Virus record (IMG/VR): IMGVR_UViG_3300009155_000294
Location: 1-22,562 of that record
DNA from: a virus
Strand: one strand, 5' to 3'
Length of the DNA: 22,562 nucleotides
Positions 4,301 to 20,587 of this stretch are shown piece by piece. The position numbers and the translations under genes were made by a program. The first letter of the stretch is position 1, and each line of letters begins with the position of its first letter. The notes under the pieces are model-generated. The model was not told the origin of the DNA. It saw only the letters and a program-made list of their open reading frames with translations, and ran no database searches.

Positions 4301-5770
4301 ATGGCTACAGAACGTATACCACTTACCCAACCTATTGAAAGCAGGGTTGGTGATTTTACTAAAGACTCGTACTCTTCTAATTGTTTTTTTGAGACAAGAG
4401 ATCAGAAGCGAGAGTTTATTAAACGTCCTGGTCTTGTATCTGCTAAACAGATCGTAGCTGTTACACCTCCTGCATACACACCTAGTCAAGGTCTTGTATC
4501 GTTTAACAACAAGCTTGTTGCTGTTATTAATAACACGGTGTACCAGGTTGACCCCAGTTCTTCCTATGCTGTTTCAACTTTAGGAACTACGTCTAGCTCA
4601 ACTAGCCAAAGCTATTTTGTTAAAACATTCTTAGATACATACCTGTTCTTTCACAACAAAGTAACTGGGTATCTGTTGAATCAATCTGGTACTTTTGTGG
4701 CTACAACTACTCTTCCTACAGCACCATACGTGTCTGGGGTTGTGTACTTAGACAACTACATATTCTTGGCTACCACTACTAACCGTATTTACAACTCAGC
4801 AGTTGGTGACCCAACTACTTGGGGAGCATTAGACTACATAACCTTTGAACAGACTACAGACACTTTGGTTGGCATAGCCAAACACTTAAACTACCTTGTA
4901 GCCTTTGGTTCTGTTAGTACTCAATTTTATTATGATGCTGCTAATGCTACGGGTTCTCCCTTAGCTGTAGCTAGTAGTTATACCTTTGAAGTTGGTTGTG
5001 CTACTGGGGATAGTATTGTTGCTACTAGTAACACGGTACTCTGGATAGGTTCTACCAAGACTAACAGTCGTTCTGTGTACATTATGGATGGTGTATCCCC
5101 TATCAAGGTGTCTACACCCCAAGTTGACAAGCACTTAGAAGCTGATAGTTTGGCTCAAGTGACTGCCTACTGCTACACCATTGACGGGCATACCCTGTAC
5201 ATCTTGACTCTTCACGATACTCAAAAGACTTTGGTCTTTGATATGAATGAAAAGATGTGGTACACATGGACTCAATACTCTATTCAGTCTAGTGACCAAC
5301 CTAACCCAGGTACTTACCAAGAGTCTTATTTCCGTCCTGCATTCTTTGCAACTCTTAACAACGTTGCTTATGTCATAGATGATGATACGGCTACCTTATA
5401 TTACTTTAGCTCTAACATTTATCAAGATAACAGTCAGTCTATCTACTGCCGTACTGTTACAGACATTATGGACAATGGAACTACCAAGCGTAAGTTCTAC
5501 GGTAGGTTAGAGATCATTGGAGATAAAGTAGCTGGTACTATGCAGATACGCCATACCGGAGATGACTACAACACTTGGTCTAGTTACAGGTCTGTAAACC
5601 TCAATGCTTCTAGATCAGAAATTTATCTTAGTGGTGCTGACAGACGTAGAGCTTGGGAGTTCTTGTGTACCAGTAATGTTCCACTTCGTATTGACGGAGC
5701 TGAGATTGATTTTAGGATTGGTGAGATGGACCAAGAACAAGCTGTTGGTGGTGGTAGATACAGAAAATAA
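4301..5770 (+). CDS. Packaged-DNA stabilisation protein, P22 gp10-like
   Basis: A 489-residue protein, close to the 472 residues of P22 gp10. Features shared with that family are an early RPGL motif, repeated strand blades with LVSFNNKLVAV and YLDNYIFLATT, a central LVAFGSVSTQFYYDA followed by SRSVYIMDGVSPIKVST, and a C-terminal RRRAWEFLCTSNVPLRI that lines up with the gp10 tail end. Gp10 forms a hexameric ring below gp4, sealing the DNA-filled head and carrying the tail needle and spikes. It follows the gp4-like gene with a 2-base gap, the P22 order. Amino acid identity to P22 is clearly low, so the call rests on order, length and motif pattern. Confidence 0.75.
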   Translation: MATERIPLTQPIESRVGDFTKDSYSSNCFFETRDQKREFIKRPGLVSAKQIVAVTPPAYTPSQGLVSFNNKLVAVINNTVYQVDPSSSYAVSTLGTTSSSTSQSYFVKTFLDTYLFFHNKVTGYLLNQSGTFVATTTLPTAPYVSGVVYLDNYIFLATTTNRIYNSAVGDPTTWGALDYITFEQTTDTLVGIAKHLNYLVAFGSVSTQFYYDAANATGSPLAVASSYTFEVGCATGDSIVATSNTVLWIGSTKTNSRSVYIMDGVSPIKVSTPQVDKHLEADSLAQVTAYCYTIDGHTLYILTLHDTQKTLVFDMNEKMWYTWTQYSIQSSDQPNPGTYQESYFRPAFFATLNNVAYVIDDDTATLYYFSSNIYQDNSQSIYCRTVTDIMDNGTTKRKFYGRLEIIGDKVAGTMQIRHTGDDYNTWSSYRSVNLNASRSEIYLSGADRRRAWEFLCTSNVPLRIDGAEIDFRIGEMDQEQAVGGGRYRK

Positions 5771-5771
5771 T

Positions 5772-6119
5772 ATGGACACTGTAGAGGCTGCTCGTTATAC
5801 TGCTTGGGAAAGCACTAGGGACAGGGCTTCTTGGACATATGAAGAGTTTTGTAAAGCTACTCAAGATTGGGTAGTCCACCCTGTTAGAGGTGGTGCAGTA
5901 CTAGCTAGAGAGTCAGAGTTACATGCTTGTGTCTTTCCTAATTCTATGTCTAGAAAAGCGTTAAAGATACTAGATAAAACTCTAAAAGAACATGGTGAAG
6001 TAGTGACATCTACTTTTGTAGGCAACTCAATTGGGGAATCTTTTGTGTCTAAATTAGGCTTTAAAAGAACCAATGTTATTAATAACGTGCAGTATTGGAG
6101 ATTGACAAATGGGACTTGA
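5772..6119 (+). CDS. GNAT-like small virion protein (T7 gp13 / DUF2833 type)
   Basis: A 115-residue protein starting at the ATG at 5772, directly after the preceding stop. The second half (ALKILDKTLKEHG, then SIGESFVSKLGF, then VQYWRL) has the end of a GNAT acetyltransferase fold: a helix, the KLGF turn and the final strand. The central acetyl-CoA loop (RxxGxG/A) is not seen. In T7, gp13 is a small GNAT-like protein needed for correct virion assembly and sits just ahead of the internal virion genes, as here. A structural or assembly role is more likely than acetyl transfer. Its stop overlaps the next start by 11 bases. Confidence 0.6.
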   Translation: MDTVEAARYTAWESTRDRASWTYEEFCKATQDWVVHPVRGGAVLARESELHACVFPNSMSRKALKILDKTLKEHGEVVTSTFVGNSIGESFVSKLGFKRTNVINNVQYWRLTNGT

Positions 6120-11600: not shown

Positions 11601-12591
11601 TCTTGGTGCTGATCCCAGGAACAAACACTTTGAAGCTATTCAAAAAGAAGCTCAAAAACAAATGTTTGAGACTCCTGAAATGCAAAGAAGCATGGGTCAA
11701 CTAGCCAAGAAACTTGGCACTAGTGTTGGAGATTTGTACAACGGCATTTCTAATGCTTCTCAAAAGGCTATGTGGTTTACTCGTGATGTTATGTATGTCC
11801 AATACATCCGTGAGATTATGGCTAGACAAGAGAAAAGTACTGGCGTTAAGATGGAATTAAAAGACGCTATTGCACAAGCTGAAAAACACATGCCTAATTA
11901 TCGTATGCCTTCTGAGGTATTAAATAGTCGCAAACTTGCTTGGACTTTAAAAAACCCTAACATTGCTTTGTTCTCTAGGTATCACTATGGCATGGTTAAG
12001 TCTTTAGTAAATACTATTAAAGATGTTGATCCTCGCAATTTAAGAACACCAGAAGGTCGTGCTCACTTTAGAGAGGGCGTTGACTCTATGTTGGCTATTG
12101 GTGTTGCTATGGGAGTGTTGTATCCTCTTATGGATGCTATGGCTGAAGCAGTGTTTGGTGAAGGTGCTGAACAACGTAGAGCTGGTCCATTCCACTTGCT
12201 CCAAGCAGGTTTAGATGTGTATGAAGGTAAAAAAGATACTACTGCTTTAATTTGGCCTGTCTTTACTTTTAATCCAGTGTTGTTAACATTAGGTCAACTT
12301 GGTTTTAACAAAAAGTTGTTTACTGGCAAAGAAGTGTTCCATACAGACGATGCTTTTGAAGACATAGCTAGTGACATAGGAACATATGCTGTAAAACAAT
12401 TACCCCAAGCTGCTCCTGTTATGTCTGCTACTGCTGAAGAAGGTGGAGACACAAAACTTATTGCTAGACAATTTGACATTAAAGTTGAGACAGAAGCAGA
12501 AAAGAAACGTAAAGAACGAGCACTTAAAGCAAAGGCTCAAAAGAAAAAGACTCGTGATACTCAACGTGCTAAAGGAACATATAACCCATGA
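8671..12591 (+). CDS. Giant internal virion / ejection protein with GNAT-like motif
   Basis: A 1306-residue protein, the largest in the window, beginning at the ATG at 8671. The N-terminus has two copies of a short motif, EFSLEDF (3-9) and EFSLDDF (27-33), separated by a Pro/Lys linker. A hydrophobic Ala/Gly stretch (about 85-125) could insert in membrane. Around 380-497 is a domain with GVFVREQDRRKGVANALYDA, which carries the RxxGxA loop of GNAT acetyltransferases. The C-terminal 450 residues are helical with a second hydrophobic segment (SMLAIGVAMGVLYPLMDAMA). Large terminal ejection proteins of podoviruses have this build. Alanine codons are overwhelmingly GCT. It overlaps the next gene by 4 bases (ATGA). 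Confidence 0.7.
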   Translation: MAEFSLEDFASEKPPAKAPPSKGNKKEFSLDDFGGTPVPSKSSSSIFGDKVSTQTLSDLVTGKEPPKTTGPGTFVREAVLSSPGTAAGVSAATAVGTATAPFGPWVAIPSAIVAGGAAGFAANYLEEEGLTALEESSPLAKKYMSMLNVDKATREAGRKEHEYYALGGQLASAAPFVSTKTAATVLSKSLVERGVSGTIQAGVGAGQRAATGEEQDLGKSLLEFGGGALMPGKLTKLGEKTVPSKFKPKEAPITPPPSGATPEQVEAFKAKVKEEKAKRDAAAPLTEAAIKNKKTGEIERMGPKHDEQRKAETADTHEQGFVDNRNNFHDREAAVDQAKRAGQIPEDHVLENPPGEQPGLHSGDLRKAGDERFKITEDQPAGKPLSSAVVLKDGSKISIETESSPNAFSTIGRMEHGEPISLIAKNESGEEIGRLTYMPDGGPIGVFVREQDRRKGVANALYDAHEAAGGKLPPVESGMIISNDARALRASREAKAAEAAKGEVKTPSSPDELAAKTSEPVAKAFEKVDPRSVPNEEEMIKHATDIHERFGEEEAVKFFEDYQKDLNERSIPVPNTPKELDDALHKVNTFESKDKSEHVVGYNKTSIGDLGERPSILNPIERNKWDKEAARRLEEMNKLREAAFLVRENGGKVGGELGKVLDAIDAENIALVRKIKAMGGDVGDEFATGQSRIRLFSEKEKPGWKETIKEFFSNKMSFGDKVAEQANAAIERKVFQTNDGRVIEFHRQPKDVTTPKGEIKQGTQIFEWKDGQKRLIGFSDDLNFKRGDTFTSTDGKKLTVVDGKVPAIEQHSPYRYWHDAEASARLANMGLRKMARELELVNNLKKSKLFETVGFSPDKPTKDLPKGWITPASIARIPELRGWHFDPKTAAIIEDFAKVWDNTMWMKATNAIVKNMMLNPVPHMFNEVMHLWNARGFTGWIDPRQLGTFADTARVAWRDVGNQTQFYRDIMREGGSILGADPRNKHFEAIQKEAQKQMFETPEMQRSMGQLAKKLGTSVGDLYNGISNASQKAMWFTRDVMYVQYIREIMARQEKSTGVKMELKDAIAQAEKHMPNYRMPSEVLNSRKLAWTLKNPNIALFSRYHYGMVKSLVNTIKDVDPRNLRTPEGRAHFREGVDSMLAIGVAMGVLYPLMDAMAEAVFGEGAEQRRAGPFHLLQAGLDVYEGKKDTTALIWPVFTFNPVLLTLGQLGFNKKLFTGKEVFHTDDAFEDIASDIGTYAVKQLPQAAPVMSATAEEGGDTKLIARQFDIKVETEAEKKRKERALKAKAQKKKTRDTQRAKGTYNP

Positions 12592-13907
12592 ACTTACTAT
12601 TGATAGATCAGTTTGGATGTTGCCTTGACTTAGCTGTTAGGGCTAAGGCTGCTGGTCATACTGTACGTGCTTACATGCGTAACAACGCTGATGGTACTCG
12701 CTGTGAGAATGGTGATGGGATGATTGACAAAGTATCTGATTGGGAGAAGCACATGAACTGGGCTGACCTCATATTTGTTACTGATAACACGTTCTACATC
12801 CACAAGCTTGAAAGTTATCGGGATAAGGGTTACCCTATTTTTGGTGCTAACCTAGAAGGTCGTAGGTGGGAACAAGACCGTGAGTACGGTGCAGCTATAT
12901 TGGAACGAGCTGGTATCCCAACTATTCCTATGCAGAAGTTTAAGAAGTACGAAGACGCTATTGCGTTAGTGCTTACTAACAAAGACAAACGATATGTGTC
13001 TAAGCCTCTTGGTGATGGTGACAAGTCTTTGTCCTACTGTTCTAAAGACTGGCGAGACATGGTGTTTATGCTTCAAAAGTGGAAGAAAGACAACGCTTAC
13101 AACGGTGAGTTTGTTCTGCAAGAGTTCCACAAGGGTGTGGAGATGGCTGTTGGTGGTTGGTTTGGTCTTGGTGGTTTCTCTAAATGGTACTTGGAGAACT
13201 GGGAGTTTAAAAAGCTAATGTCTGGTGACTATGGTCCTGCTACTGGTGAGCAAGGTACTATTCTTAGGTACACCAAAGAGAGCTTGTTAGCTGACAAGGT
13301 TCTTAAACCTCTAGAAGACTTCTTGCACGGTATCAATTACTCTGGTTACATTGATGTCAACTGCATCATTGATAACAAGGGTATACCCTGGCCTTTAGAG
13401 TTTACTACTCGTCCAGGTTGGCCTTTGTTTCAGATTCAACAAGCTCTGCATGTAGGCGATCCTATTGAATGGATGCTTGATATGCTTGACGGTAAAGACA
13501 CTCTGAAAGTTAAAACTGACATAGCCTGTGGTGTTGTTATCTCTCAGCCTGACTACCCTTACGACAACGTAACCAAGAAACACAACACGGGTTATCCCTT
13601 GTTTGATTTGTGTGAAGAGGATGGTACTAAGAACATTCATTTCTCAGAAATTAAAATGGGTACTTGTCCTGATGAGAAGGGTAACAACAAAGAACCTTGT
13701 TTGGTTACCTGTGGCAGCTACATCCTTACTGTGTCTGGTCTGGGTAAAACCATTGAAGATGCTCGTTGTAAAGCCTATGAAACTTATGAAAAAAAGGTCA
13801 CTGTAATTAACTCTCCTATGGTTAGAGATGACGTAGGTGAGAAGCTTGAGAAACAGCTTCCTGACATTCAAAAGTACGGCTACTGTACTGACGTTGAGTA
13901 TTGCTAA
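12588..13907 (+). CDS. PurD-like ATP-grasp ligase of unknown substrate
   Basis: A 439-residue protein with the domain order of phosphoribosylamine-glycine ligase (PurD): an N-terminal Rossmann-like domain, an ATP-grasp core (YVSKP at 136-140, EFHKGVEMAVGG at 179-190, GDYGPATGEQG at 213-223, LEFTTRPG at 270-277) and a C-terminal domain (YILTVSGLGKTIEDARCKAY). In PurD the last core motif reads EFNxRFGDPE; here it is EFTTRPGWPL, so the metal-binding Asn and the acidic GDPE loop are lost while Glu271 and Arg275 remain. The fold and ATP use look sound, but the substrate is probably not that of PurD. It is coupled by ATGA to the giant virion protein and followed by a fibre-like gene, not by purine genes. 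Confidence 0.75.
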   Translation: MNLLLIDQFGCCLDLAVRAKAAGHTVRAYMRNNADGTRCENGDGMIDKVSDWEKHMNWADLIFVTDNTFYIHKLESYRDKGYPIFGANLEGRRWEQDREYGAAILERAGIPTIPMQKFKKYEDAIALVLTNKDKRYVSKPLGDGDKSLSYCSKDWRDMVFMLQKWKKDNAYNGEFVLQEFHKGVEMAVGGWFGLGGFSKWYLENWEFKKLMSGDYGPATGEQGTILRYTKESLLADKVLKPLEDFLHGINYSGYIDVNCIIDNKGIPWPLEFTTRPGWPLFQIQQALHVGDPIEWMLDMLDGKDTLKVKTDIACGVVISQPDYPYDNVTKKHNTGYPLFDLCEEDGTKNIHFSEIKMGTCPDEKGNNKEPCLVTCGSYILTVSGLGKTIEDARCKAYETYEKKVTVINSPMVRDDVGEKLEKQLPDIQKYGYCTDVEYC

Positions 13908-16262: not shown

Positions 16263-16741
16263 GTTTGTTTAATCCCTGGGTACTTCTAAGCATTGTTATG
16301 GCTATTTTTAGTAGCTTTGGTGGTGGGTACTATAAGGGTAAACACGATGAGAACACACGGCAGCAGATTGAAATTGCTGCTTTAAATGCAGATGCTAGAC
16401 AAAAAGAACAAGCACTTACTTCTGCTGTAAATGCCCAAGCTAATCAACTCATGAAAGCTAACCAAAATGCAAAACTTCTATCTCAAAAGCGTGCTGCTGA
16501 TATTGACAGTGGTGCTCTCAAGTTGCGGATCGCTGTCAAAGCCTCCGAGTGTTCCGTACACACCTCCTCAGATACCTCCGCTACCACAGGAGCTAACTCA
16601 GGAACAACATCAGCCGAACTTGACGGAGAAACTTCTAAAGCTCTTATCGCCATCACAGACGAAGGAGATGCCGCCATCCGCAAGCTCAACACCTGTCTCT
16701 CCCTCTACAACGAAGCCCTCCAAACCTTGAAAGGAAAATGA
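16259..16741 (+). CDS. Rz: Rz-like inner-membrane spanin
   Basis: A 160-residue protein with an N-terminal membrane anchor (NPWVLLSIVMAIFSSFGGGY), then a periplasmic helix (GKHDENTRQQIEIAALNADA onward), a Cys-containing low-complexity Ser/Thr part, and a final block SKALIAITDEGDAAIRKLNT that matches the C-terminal ALxxIxxxGDxAIRxLN pattern of Rz spanins. I-spanins join with a lipoprotein partner to fuse inner and outer membranes in the last lysis step. The partner Rz1 is nested in this gene in another frame. The last 230 bases are more C-rich than the rest, matching the double-coded stretch. Confidence 0.8.
   Translation: MSLFNPWVLLSIVMAIFSSFGGGYYKGKHDENTRQQIEIAALNADARQKEQALTSAVNAQANQLMKANQNAKLLSQKRAADIDSGALKLRIAVKASECSVHTSSDTSATTGANSGTTSAELDGETSKALIAITDEGDAAIRKLNTCLSLYNEALQTLKGK
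16467..16730 (+). CDS. Rz1: Rz1-like outer-membrane spanin nested inside Rz
   Basis: An 87-residue frame wholly inside Rz, shifted by +1. It begins MQNFYLKSVLLILTVVLSSC, a lipoprotein signal with lipobox LSSC, so the mature lipoprotein would start at Cys20. The mature chain is Pro-rich (KPPSVPYTPPQIPPLPQ near its start), typical of Rz1 o-spanins, which are lipidated, short and rich in proline. Nested Rz1 in Rz is known from lambda. The chance that an alternative frame holds a signal, lipobox and Pro-rich tail by accident is small. It is longer than lambda Rz1. Confidence 0.82.
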   Translation: MQNFYLKSVLLILTVVLSSCGSLSKPPSVPYTPPQIPPLPQELTQEQHQPNLTEKLLKLLSPSQTKEMPPSASSTPVSPSTTKPSKP

Positions 16742-16743
16742 CC

Positions 16744-17172
16744 ATGAACTTATCTGAAAACTTTACTTACGAAGAGTTGACACACACAGACCACCGTGAG
16801 TTTGACAACACCCCTAATGAAACTGAAATGGCTAACCTTGTTCGTTTAGCCGCATTCTTAGAGCAAGTTAAAGAGGTGATAGGTGGTAAGCCTATTATGA
16901 TTAACTCTGCTTTTCGTTGTGCTGAAGTTAACAAAGCTGTTGGTTCTAGTGACCGATCTCAACATCGTCATGGTTGTGCTGCTGACATCCGTGTCCCAGG
17001 TATGACTCCTGATGAGGTTGTCACAGCTATTATGGGTTCTGGTTTACCCTATGACCAAGTGATACGTGAGTTTGATCGTTGGACACATGTAAGCATCCCC
17101 AACACAGAAGAAGCAGAACCACGCTCAATGGCTCTGATTATTGATAAAGCAGGTACTCGACAGTACGCTTAA
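16744..17172 (+). CDS. M15-family peptidoglycan peptidase, endolysin
   Basis: A 142-residue protein. I chose the ATG at 16744, which sits 8 bases after AAGGA; the ATG at 16738 (overlapping the Rz stop) is only 2-3 bases from it. Relatives also begin MxLSENFTxEEL. The zinc-peptidase signature is complete: INSAFRC, then SQHRHGCAADI giving His74 and Asp81, and DRWTHVSI giving His115, with Glu109 nearby. Family members (peptidase M15_3) cut peptide links of peptidoglycan. No signal peptide is seen, so it should need the holin to reach the wall. Its stop codon overlaps the stop of an oppositely directed small gene. Confidence 0.85.
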   Translation: MNLSENFTYEELTHTDHREFDNTPNETEMANLVRLAAFLEQVKEVIGGKPIMINSAFRCAEVNKAVGSSDRSQHRHGCAADIRVPGMTPDEVVTAIMGSGLPYDQVIREFDRWTHVSIPNTEEAEPRSMALIIDKAGTRQYA

Positions 17173-17267
17173 TCTGTATCGTCATAGAGAGCAGCAAGCA
17201 TATAGACAACCCACAAACAGATGCCTATACCAATTGCTGCTCCTAGTAACAAAATAAAAAATATCAT
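17169..17267 (-). CDS. 32-residue single-span membrane micropeptide
   Basis: A short frame from ATG (17267-17265) to TAA (17171-17169). The product is mostly one membrane segment (IFFILLLGAAIGIGICLWVV, then YMLAAL) with an acidic end YDDTD. It starts in an ATGA overlap with the upstream gene, which argues for translational coupling. The stop overlaps that of the endolysin on the other strand. AGAAG lies upstream as a weak ribosome site. Function unknown. The hydrophobic composition over 26 residues without a stop, plus coupling, supports a real gene. Confidence 0.55.
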   Translation of the reverse strand: MIFFILLLGAAIGIGICLWVVYMLAALYDDTD

Positions 17268-17410
17268 ATTGCTTCTTTTTTGTATTCTTGTAAAAGTTTT
17301 CGCAACCACTTGGCGGCTCCAAGTTTTAGCCATTGCTGGTACTCAGACTCAGTAAGACGAACACCAATCGCCCTACCGCTTTTGGTCAGTTCAGTTTTTG
17401 GTCTAGGCAT
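17264..17410 (-). CDS. 48-residue ribbon-helix-helix-like protein
   Basis: Starts at ATG (17410-17408) with GGAG ten bases upstream and ends in TGA overlapping the next start. Sequence parts: a basic N-terminal arm MPRPKTELTKSGR, a strand AIGVRLTE, a helix SEYQQWLKLG and a second helix AAKWLRKLLQEYKKE. Strand-helix-helix in under 50 residues is the Arc/CopG DNA-binding plan. Small phage proteins with the GAAKWLRKLL end are familiar to me, without known target. A possible regulator of late replication-region genes. It overlaps the upstream zinc-finger gene by 25 bases. Confidence 0.6.
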   Translation of the reverse strand: MPRPKTELTKSGRAIGVRLTESEYQQWLKLGAAKWLRKLLQEYKKEAI

Positions 17411-17553
17411 TGGTGTTGTTCTCCTGCTGATTTAACTGTAAATATCATGTTGCATTTGGTGCAACGCCACATTGTTCCTTGTTGAACAACTGTTTGTCGA
17501 TTACCGTGTAACCCACGTAGTCTTCCAAAGAATGTTCTGATTGCTTCAATCAT
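17386..17553 (-). CDS. 55-residue C2HC zinc-finger-like protein
   Basis: Reads from ATG (17553-17551), in an ATGA overlap with the upstream stop, to TGA at 17388-17386. The N-terminal helix MIEAIRTFFGRLRGLHGN is amphipathic and basic. Then WRCTKCN (Cys31, Cys34) and, 13 residues on, HQC (His47, Cys49) could bind one zinc ion. A GAGAGA stretch upstream serves as ribosome site. No family is recognised. The Cys/His spacing suggests a nucleic-acid or protein-binding mini-domain; this is inference. Confidence 0.55.
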   Translation of the reverse strand: MIEAIRTFFGRLRGLHGNRQTVVQQGTMWRCTKCNMIFTVKSAGEQHQCLDQKLN

Positions 17554-17756
17554 GTTTGTCTCTCTTTCATCATGGCTTTCGCCTGTTTGTATGCTGACTT
17601 TGCAATGTCATCGTAATCCAATTCATACCCATCAGGTGCTGTATCTACCAAGGCTTGCATGGCTTTTGCAGCAAAATAGTCCAGCGTTGATATGCCAGCC
17701 CTACCCGAGTCTCTTGGCTCAGGCGTAGGAAATGCTGGATGGTTCTTGAGTTTCAT
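17550..17756 (-). CDS. Small conserved phage hypothetical protein
   Basis: A 68-residue acidic protein with ATGA overlaps at both ends. It begins MKLKNHPAFPTPEPRD and contains STLDYFAAKAMQALVD and a C-terminal helix YDDIAKSAYKQAKAMMKER. The pattern HPAFP, DYFAAxAM, and DIAxxAYxxAxAMMxER is common among small phage and prophage proteins located in replication or accessory regions. I know of no demonstrated function. The motif pattern and coupling make the gene itself secure. Confidence 0.7.
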   Translation of the reverse strand: MKLKNHPAFPTPEPRDSGRAGISTLDYFAAKAMQALVDTAPDGYELDYDDIAKSAYKQAKAMMKERQT

Positions 17757-17875
17757 TTGTAGACCGCCACTACTTCACCACCAAAACTCTTTTGAATTTC
17801 CCTAGCGAGGGACTCTGTCCAAAAAAACTTTGGTTCGTGTTTGTCTTTTGTCCAGACGTATCCGTATAGTTTCAT
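17753..17875 (-). CDS. 40-residue hypothetical protein
   Basis: Reads from ATG (17875-17873) to TGA (17755-17753) with ATGA overlaps on both sides. The product (KLYGYVWTKDKHEPKFFW, then LAREIQKSFGGEVVAVYK) looks like a strand-helix-strand mini-domain rich in aromatic residues. No family is recognised. The support is the exact coupling with both neighbours and a protein-like composition, and the stretch would otherwise be a 115-base gap in a genome without gaps. Confidence 0.5.
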   Translation of the reverse strand: MKLYGYVWTKDKHEPKFFWTESLAREIQKSFGGEVVAVYK

Positions 17876-18162
17876 GTGTTTTCCTTGCGCTGTGGTGGGT
17901 GGGTGTAGAGGGGTATCTTTGGCAAATTAACTGTTGTCGGCGTATTCCAACTCATTGGTTTTGCCCATTCAAGTTTTCGTTCTTCAACATTGATGTACGC
18001 CACAGGCTCTTGCTCTTGCTGTGCCAAGGCTTCTTTGATGGCGGCAATCGCTTTGTACATTTTTTCCGCTGATGCGTTGAACTCATCATCGTTTGTCCAA
18101 TCAATAGACAACTCTGTTTCAAATGCATCAAGTGCTATTTTTAATGCTTCATCTTGTGTCAT
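17872..18162 (-). CDS. Conserved phage hypothetical protein (ALAQxEQEPVA type)
   Basis: A 96-residue protein. The first half is an acidic helix (DEALKIALDAFETELS, then KMYKAIAAIKEALAQQEQEP) and the second half has PVAYINVEERKLEWAK and IPLYTHPPQRKE. The combination of IxAIKEALAQxEQEPVA with a final LYTxPP occurs in many small phage and prophage proteins of proteobacteria. Function is unknown. It starts 2 bases after the upstream stop and ends in an ATGA overlap. Confidence 0.7.
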   Translation of the reverse strand: MTQDEALKIALDAFETELSIDWTNDDEFNASAEKMYKAIAAIKEALAQQEQEPVAYINVEERKLEWAKPMSWNTPTTVNLPKIPLYTHPPQRKENT

Positions 18163-19142: not shown

Positions 19143-19797
19143 TTGGAGGCTCCCACATATCGTTTGGTTTTTGCCAGATGTACAACAGTTTCATGTTGAG
19201 GTGGAAGCGATCATCATCGTTATAGAGTTCACGGCACTTGTCGTACCACTCTTCAGGCAGAAGCTCTGCTAAAGCTTGTTCTGCTTTTACTGGACCAATG
19301 CCAGCTACGCCAATGATGTTGTCACTCCTGTCACCTATGAGACTCTGTAAATAAAGGTGTTTTAAACCCTGATCCTTAGACTGAACACTGTGCAACTTCT
19401 TTACAAAGTTGTAGTGTCTGCCAGGTATCTGTAGCAGGTCTTTGTCAATAGAACAAATAACCGTACTTATAGTTTCTTTGTCTTGCTGCACACCCATCTC
19501 ATCATCTGCTTCAAACCCATCACATATTTGTGCTTTGTGTTGTGTTACTAGGAACTCTCGCACAGCTTGCCAATGTGTTGGTCTTGAATCAGGACGGTTA
19601 GCTTTGTAGCTAGGAGCAAGCTCCCTACGAAAATTGTTACTGCCAGTGAGGTACACGTTGTAAGACGTAGCGCCTGTGTCTGCAAGGATGTCTTGAATCA
19701 TTTGGTCAGCCCTTGCTAGAGCTACCCATTGTTCTTCTTTCTCTGCTGACATAGCTCCACGGTACACAACTATGTCTCCGTCAATTAGTGCTTTCAC
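19135..19797 (-). CDS. 5'-3' exonuclease, FEN / T7 gp6-like
   Basis: A 220-residue protein starting at GTG (19797-19795) in a GTGA overlap. Family residues are visible: LIDGDIVVYRG (Asp6, Asp8), an arch region ending APSYKANRP, GFEADDEMG (Glu96, Asp98, Asp99), CSIDKDLLQIPG (Asp118, Asp120), GDRSDNIIG (Asp156, Asp159) and the helix-hairpin-helix GVAGIGPVKAEQAL. These supply the two-metal site and DNA contact of the PolA N-terminal/FEN class. In T7 such an enzyme removes primers and degrades host DNA. The polymerase two genes upstream has no such domain, so the two proteins together would cover the functions of bacterial Pol I. Confidence 0.88.
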   Translation of the reverse strand: MKALIDGDIVVYRGAMSAEKEEQWVALARADQMIQDILADTGATSYNVYLTGSNNFRRELAPSYKANRPDSRPTHWQAVREFLVTQHKAQICDGFEADDEMGVQQDKETISTVICSIDKDLLQIPGRHYNFVKKLHSVQSKDQGLKHLYLQSLIGDRSDNIIGVAGIGPVKAEQALAELLPEEWYDKCRELYNDDDRFHLNMKLLYIWQKPNDMWEPPNA

Positions 19798-20009
19798 TTA
19801 ATGTCCCTGGTTACATAAGCAACTGTTTGTGAATAAGACATTGTGAAACCTAGCTCAACAGCGTACCTGTTCCTAATAACATCCAACTTCTCGTACACTT
19901 CTTTTTCTAAACCAACTGCTTTGTATACTTTTTTTGTAGATACGGGTTGTGGTGTACCCTCAACTTTTTTAGGACGACCTGGTTTACGTTTGTGCATTGT
20001 GATAGTCAT
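19794..20009 (-). CDS. AT-hook plus ribbon-helix-helix DNA-binding protein
   Basis: A 71-residue basic protein starting at the ATG at 20009, with GAGAG six bases upstream; an in-frame ATG at 19997 is a less likely start. Residues 7-15 (KRKPGRPKK) are a textbook AT-hook centred on GRP, which binds the minor groove of A/T tracts. After a linker, KVYKAVGLEKEVYEKLDVIR and a second helix MSYSQTVAYVTRDI fit the strand-helix-helix plan of CopG-type repressors. It lies right after a terminator and ahead of the exonuclease, so it could control its own downstream cluster. Specific target unknown. Confidence 0.65.
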   Translation of the reverse strand: MTITMHKRKPGRPKKVEGTPQPVSTKKVYKAVGLEKEVYEKLDVIRNRYAVELGFTMSYSQTVAYVTRDIK

Positions 20010-20020
20010 TTGTTTCTCTC

Positions 20021-20053
20021 AAAAAAAAAGTGAGAGCTTTTTACGGCTCTCAC
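20021..20053 (-). terminator. Rho-independent terminator, - strand
   Basis: On the - strand an 8-bp perfect stem GTGAGAGC / GCTCTCAC (20053-20046 with 20037-20030) encloses an 8-base loop and is followed by nine T (20029-20021). It begins 6 bases after the stop of the ssDNA-binding protein gene. The T run is on the correct side for - strand transcripts only. It should end or attenuate transcription from the polymerase/SSB genes. The ribosome site of the next gene starts right after the T run. Confidence 0.85.
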
Positions 20054-20059
20054 AAAGGT

Positions 20060-20587
20060 TTACGACAACTGCTCAGCAGTAGTTTCTTCCATTGCTTCTT
20101 GCATGTCAATATCCCCTGCTGTATAAGCTTCAAACTTACGAGCAAGAGTGACTACGAGATCAAGAGTAGAAGATTCCAACTCAAAGGGTTTACCCCCACG
20201 AGCTGCAATGTAGAGGTCTGTGGCACGAGCTAAAGCGTTCTGACGAACAATAGCCCTGTCACCATGTAGAGCAGGGATTGGGAATACCTTCTCTTTGTAG
20301 CCACTGTAGGCGGCTTTGGGAGCCGCTACAGCGGGTGCTGTTGTTGCCCCTGACGGGGTAGGTGCTGCGTCTGCTTTACGAAGGATGTTGACGCTTTTAG
20401 TCTCAACTCCGTAAGTACCGTTTACACCATCAAACTCAACCTCATAACCAACTGCAACATTGGGGTTCTTAAACCCACATTTGATCCAAGTGCCACCTAC
20501 TTTCATTGAGAAGGTTGGCTTTGTACCAAACTTGGTGCTTACGTCTTTTGTAGAAATTGCTTCTACGATACCTGTCTGCATTGTCAT
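20060..20587 (-). CDS. OB-fold single-stranded DNA-binding protein (probable)
   Basis: A 175-residue protein, starting one base after the polymerase stop. Residues 5-70 (GIVEAISTKDVSTKFG, then TFSMKVGGTWIKCGFKNP, then GYEVEFDG) read as a five-strand OB fold. An Ala/Pro linker follows at 72-92, then a helical part with DRAIVRQNALARATDLYIAA and an acidic end (GDIDMQEAMEETTAEQ). Phage SSBs commonly pair an OB fold with an acidic tail that contacts the polymerase. The adjacent DNA polymerase supports this. The call is from domain plan and context; the acidic tail is less acidic than in T7 gp2.5. Confidence 0.65.
   Translation of the reverse strand: MTMQTGIVEAISTKDVSTKFGTKPTFSMKVGGTWIKCGFKNPNVAVGYEVEFDGVNGTYGVETKSVNILRKADAAPTPSGATTAPAVAAPKAAYSGYKEKVFPIPALHGDRAIVRQNALARATDLYIAARGGKPFELESSTLDLVVTLARKFEAYTAGDIDMQEAMEETTAEQLS

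Follow-up and report, generated by a model that had tools for sequence, protein, structure and literature searches.

A probable cassette of translationally coupled mini-genes with exchangeable partners behind a predicted zinc finger in an uncultured tailed phage

ATGA overlaps are characteristic of gene pairs coupled by termination-reinitiation (Huber et al. 2019 and 2023; PMC6728339, PMC10666635), and short overlaps couple translation and are enriched among pairs whose products form complexes (PMC6728339, PMC10666635). Phage zinc mini-proteins of the TraR/DksA type provide a precedent for a role in gene expression (PMC9239242), and engineered gene overlaps protect genes from loss (PMC8528312). 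In the phage locus described here, which comprises five mini-genes named A to E, every junction but one is a -4 ATGA overlap, and coupling is the expected consequence. The exception differs from termination-reinitiation pairs, whose spacing is usually -8 to +6: genes C and B overlap by 25 nt, an AGGAG lies inside C, and a predicted metal ligand of the upstream protein is encoded within the overlap. The C protein shares the C-x2-C-x3-F-x8-H spacing of C2H2/C2HC fingers (Pfam zf-C2H2), and some of its relatives end in H-x3-4-H, but it mostly ends in H-x-C and possesses its own 25-residue N-terminal segment (MIEAIRTFFGKLRG...), predicted to form a beta-hairpin. Like the TraR/DksA-type proteins it is a very small phage protein with a zinc-finger motif encoded among accessory genes, but no sequence match to them was found; the likeness is in size and motif type only and offers a lead on function, not kinship. 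As with engineered overlaps, losing one gene would harm the other, whereas the C junction is natural, short and has interchangeable partners. A literature search found no description of the cassette.

The window, that is, the whole stretch of DNA analysed, is a 22,562-base IMG/VR virus record, and the finding covers the final 707 bases of its minus-strand block. Structural genes share the plus strand with an M15 endolysin (Peptidase M15_3 by family match, 16738-17172). The minus strand, heading towards the endolysin, encodes a DNA polymerase, an exonuclease, an endonuclease I and small genes. The chain consists of E40 (17753-17875, 40 codons, an aromatic protein), D68 (17550-17756, 68 codons, a member of a widespread phage family), C55 (17386-17553, 55 codons, a predicted single C2HC zinc finger), B48 (17264-17410, 48 codons, a small basic protein with two predicted helices) and A32 (17169-17267, 32 codons), all on the minus strand. 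The upstream neighbor F96 (17872-18162, minus strand, 96 codons) is joined to E by the same device. ATGA junctions lie at 17264-17267, 17550-17553, 17753-17756 and 17872-17875, and the only other junction among the five genes is the C/B overlap (17386-17410, minus strand). An earlier note, made from the letters alone, had proposed micro-genes of 32, 48, 55 and 40 residues plus a 68-residue gene, interlocked by ATGA or by a 25-base overlap with a GGAG site. All of these frames are present as described between 17169 and 17875, and the interlocking was found, with AGGAG located 10 nt before the ATG of B. Whole-window megablast against 50,697 phage records gave no match, nor did Rfam and tRNA scans of the window.

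Gene finders frequently overlook small phage genes, which are also often dismissed. The earlier note also argued that chance frames would not chain so exactly, and a simulation bears this out: among 3000 Markov-2 segments of equal length, scored for ATG-only chains with gaps of -30 to +15, the best chain averaged 162 nt and a single segment reached 650 nt, against 707 nt for the real chain. The evidence from relatives is stronger proof of coding than this simulation. Homologues occur in IMG/VR phage contigs: at least 458 stretches for D, about 110 fetched loci for B, about 105 or more for C, 51 loci for E (found by a search with an alignment as query) and about seven contigs for A. Relative to the nearest relatives, pN/pS is 0.09-0.13 for D, 0.10-0.13 for E, 0.32-0.46 for B and 0.26-0.57 for C, while A shows too few changes for a firm value. 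Stops or frameshifts in related phages, which the earlier note had named as evidence against the frames, did not turn up. Two oddities are a B-C fusion in one contig (L100) and a truncated X partner gene in another (L185). Relatives, selection (mostly clear purifying selection, as judged by sequence comparison) and conserved junctions together strongly support that the five genes are real and chained by their overlaps. The least certain of the five is A, whose relatives are few and close only.

By the same comparisons, each gene is a member of a family spread through uncultured phages, hence no isolated unknown. Tblastn of B and E against the 50,697 phage records returned no matches, and an NCBIfam search with A-F returned nothing. 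The same tblastn with C gave weak matches only (E near 1); one that was inspected, in phage LKA5, lies inside a longer annotated gene and was discarded. A genome scan with the C profile identified one contig, in a beta-proteobacterial metagenome-assembled genome, that also carries B and is most likely a binned phage contig. Comparison by itself is enough to validate several families of proteins of 32-68 residues, in phages without a close cultured relative.

The label of C2HC zinc finger given to C by the earlier note is supported. C31, C34 and H47 are invariant and C49 is conserved in at least 90% of 55 sequences, and the profile matches C2H2 fingers in the PDB, the best chain being 2i13 (Aart, E 1.3e-8) and the best stretch residues 29-52. 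C55 has a single finger with the spacing C-x2-C-x3-F-x8-H-x-C; the H-x-C ending occurs in most relatives and the classical H-x3-4-H ending in a minority. Single members match Pfam zf-C2H2 weakly (6 of 55, best E 0.0026, below Pfam's curated cut-offs). The predicted structure of C55, of moderate confidence (pLDDT 77), has long strands and a 5-residue helix, with the first half forming a long beta-hairpin. Its best structural match, to MBD domains, has a Z of 3.0, too low for meaning, and Foldseek and VIA-align gave no usable match with this model. We conclude that the sequence supports a C2HC zinc finger, with zinc binding predicted.

Both the ribosome binding site and the start codon of whichever gene follows lie in the 3' end of C; depending on the relative, the follower is B, a helix-turn-helix gene (X or Y) or another gene. 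The C/B overlap measures exactly 25 nt in 50 distinct C/B DNA pairs: the codon of the last zinc ligand, Cys49 (TGC), overlaps the ATG of B by two bases (A-TGC), and the stop of C lies within the Leu8-Thr9 codons of B. Of 118 distinct C genes, 49 have a B that starts at -1 from the Cys codon and 24 have X, Y or X+Y starting at -5, four bases further upstream than B. With X or Y docked, ATG-NNT-GY (Met-Thr-Val, Met-Ser-Ala or Met-Gly-Ala in the partner) provides this same Cys. A purine-rich site (AGGAG or GGGGG) in the Ala-Gly-Glu codons of C is located 10 nt before the B start and 6 nt before the X start.

Partner genes differ at their 5' ends according to whether they are docked. Y encodes a helix-turn-helix protein (HTH_7, 25.5 bits against the Pfam cut-off of 23.8). 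Docked Y genes carry an N-terminal extension, and in 19 of 20 distinct cases it reads ATGNNTGY (MTV/MSA/MGA) and so provides the Cys; these cases fall into few N-terminal classes and are not independent events. None of 39 undocked Y genes has such an extension, and these begin with MKGGAR, MHGGAR or MKRGYR. The one X relative found away from C starts with MTNAFDW and lacks the added codons. MT-, MR- and MH- starts, or Ile at position 8 (EIT), occur among undocked B genes and in no docked one. D-type and F-type genes also occupy the slot after C, and C is without a docked gene in about 20 loci, so docking is not obligatory. The fusion in L100 (about 5744-6055, minus strand) joins homologues of C55 and B48 in one 116-codon frame; its sisters L108, L227 and L228 have a -20 overlap and differ from L100 in a run of A, so the fusion may be an error.

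B48 (MPRPKTELT...GVRLTESEYQQW...WLRKLL) is small and basic, and its monomer model has helices at 21-30 and 32-47 and no strand. The earlier note had likened B to ribbon-helix-helix (RHH) proteins. This resemblance by eye is not confirmed. B has two predicted helices, but a match to an RHH profile emerged neither in Pfam nor in an hhalign comparison with 23 PF01402 sequences, in which the probability of 0.8% was barely above column-shuffled controls (0.1-0.5%). Foldseek and VIA-align found no usable match for the B model. Locus L383, from a bacterial genome in the order of G001, has a gene for a B-like protein (1501-1632, RPKAESPTKPRSLRLTDAEWQKLQDLGGVEWIRAQLDQA), hinting that B may have cellular relatives.

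Exchange is also visible further upstream in the chain. The last codons of E40, TAYAAATGA, carry the start of the next gene, and E is joined to its successor by a -4 overlap in 34 of 44 distinct loci. D, C and at least four other kinds of gene occur as this successor, making at least six kinds in all; among those occurring after E are genes for GLFPDPP proteins, which are not DNA-binding by sequence. D68 (GISTLDYFAAKAMQ) matches positions 139-215 of the 226-position profile of PHROG 2201 (E 1.7e-11), the C-terminal part only, and unlike the longer profile it stands alone at 68 residues. Its relatives are also found in Pseudomonas phages D3 and PAJU2. Three loci carry D-type genes in tandem (L005 4816-5201, L006 2897-3297 and L174 4106-4500), one close to D68 and the other with 37-40% identity. 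F96 ends in EPVAYINVEE...IPLYTHPPQR, parts of which recur in neighboring phage genes of differing length; this end is possibly a mobile C-terminal module.

Pairwise DNA comparison locates one such exchange within the window. L082, L083, L163 and L189 align to the A region only up to 17286. For L002 and L209 the similarity begins at 17286, and in L002 it extends as far as 17880. These opposite edges indicate that E-D-C-B (17286-17880, minus strand), the cassette common to the window and L002, is one block from one lineage, flanked by F and A from another. By this comparison there is a mosaic breakpoint at 17286, inside B, with A and the last six codons of B derived from another lineage than E-D-C-B. 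Those six codons (YKKEAI) and the following ATGA are the same as in the unrelated X gene that lies between C and A in L163, L082 and L083. In L002 and L209, the usual B ending, KRDASV, overlaps the start of another frame (MPAFETW...), so the 3' end of B may be a docking site as well.

L163 differs from the window at other junctions too. Its C gene has 90.8% DNA identity to the C core of the window, though X stands in place of B, and D is absent precisely between two ATGA sites, with E joined directly to C. On a tree of the C core, which is poorly resolved because it has only 47 columns, the distribution of B versus X/Y requires a minimum of 15 switches, of which well-supported branches force 3-4 per group. 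The sequence comparisons show that gene order and membership vary between relatives by precise exchanges at or near junctions.

We consider it probable that the locus is the variable 3' end of a replication/early operon of an uncultured tailed phage and carries a modular, translationally coupled cassette of mini-genes for nucleic-acid-binding and membrane proteins. Each mini-gene would evolve separately while its last codons carry the start codon of the next. Ribosomes finishing one gene would start the next, so that the chain is expressed in step, as the sequence and the published work on ATGA overlaps suggest. Ribosomes engaged on C would go on to translate B, as they would X and Y, with help from the AGGAG in the Ala-Gly-Glu codons of C. 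Going by motif type only, C and its partner may be nucleic-acid-binding proteins that tune transcription or translation during infection, and A may act in the membrane. A shared regulatory theme is not proven, since the D-type, F-type and GLFPDPP partners are not DNA-binding by sequence.

The C junction admits two readings. One, which we rate as nearly an even call, is ordinary phage compaction: ATGA-packed accessory genes are shuffled by illegitimate recombination, and the shared Cys is a by-product, without selection on the overlap. Recombination just inside the next gene would leave C travelling with its neighbor's first codons, which would account for the MTV/MSA start shared by X and Y, and a breakpoint is indeed observed inside B, at its other end. 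ATGA is moreover the commonest overlap in prokaryotes (PMC10666635). Two observations fit this account less well: both registers, -1 for B and -5 for X/Y, lead to the same Cys, and codon 2 (MT, MR, MH) or codon 8 (EIT) varies in uncoupled B genes but is constant in coupled ones. The other reading, which we hold tentatively, is that C55 has a docking end: the first codons of unrelated downstream genes would complete its metal site, exchange would succeed only with a functional junction, and selection would maintain the entanglement. Such entanglement would keep expression matched and penalize loss of C or of the junction. The two registers giving the same Cys favor selection over simple co-travel, although the independent events are few.

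Small, variable genes at the end of an operon are a typical setting for anti-defence or host-shut-off functions, and the mini-genes are small, variable, terminal in the operon and missing from many relatives. Such a function, which the earlier note had suggested, is nevertheless unlikely: accessory genes of other kinds are found just as typically in this position, and Pfam, PHROGs and NCBIfam searches gave no named family pointing to anti-defence. Still more doubtful is a regulatory pair of the toxin-antitoxin or anti-repressor type, in which a constant C would directly contact interchangeable DNA-binding partners B, X and Y, as B or helix-turn-helix genes following C in the majority of distinct cases, the in-frame C-B fusion and the enrichment of complex partners among overlapping pairs (PMC10666635) would suggest, for that fusion is a single contig differing in an A-run and may be an error, D-type and F-type partners occur too, and searches of Pfam, PHROGs and NCBIfam linked neither B nor C to a toxin or antitoxin family.

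In its setting the cassette shows ordinary phage modularity; what lifts it above routine is the zinc-finger junction, an unusual and checkable detail. The C55 junctions form a natural series in which one protein end is completed by different downstream genes, which offers a way to study how gene overlaps originate, persist through recombination and guard the paired genes against loss. That one slot can hold either a two-helix or a helix-turn-helix protein suggests a constant zinc-finger partner with interchangeable regulators.

At the end of the chain, A32 has one hydrophobic stretch (MIFFILLLGAAIGIGICLWVVYMLAALYDDTD) and, going by its sequence, is probably a membrane peptide, as the earlier note had labelled it. 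It adjoins the convergent endolysin in all of the about seven contigs that carry it, and in the window the stops of the two genes share the palindrome TTAA (17169-17172). The sequence GATTAAGCGT at the end of A recurs in all A loci, even where the endolysin is only 39% identical. A convergent endolysin homologue lies within 3 kb of just 19 of the 91 C genes with enough sequence, so this neighborhood is common but not a rule. A 9-pair terminator-like hairpin at 17114-17136 (minus strand), just past A32 and inside the endolysin gene, is a candidate operon end. Among the virion genes, 12588-13907 (plus strand) encodes a 439-residue protein that by eye resembles an ATP-grasp enzyme of the PurD type, with no PHROG match at E 0.01. 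In the gap between the minus-strand genes at 20060-20587 and 19794-20009 there is a strong hairpin resembling a terminator, GTGAGAGC...GCTCTCAC and then eight T, at 20030-20053 (minus strand).
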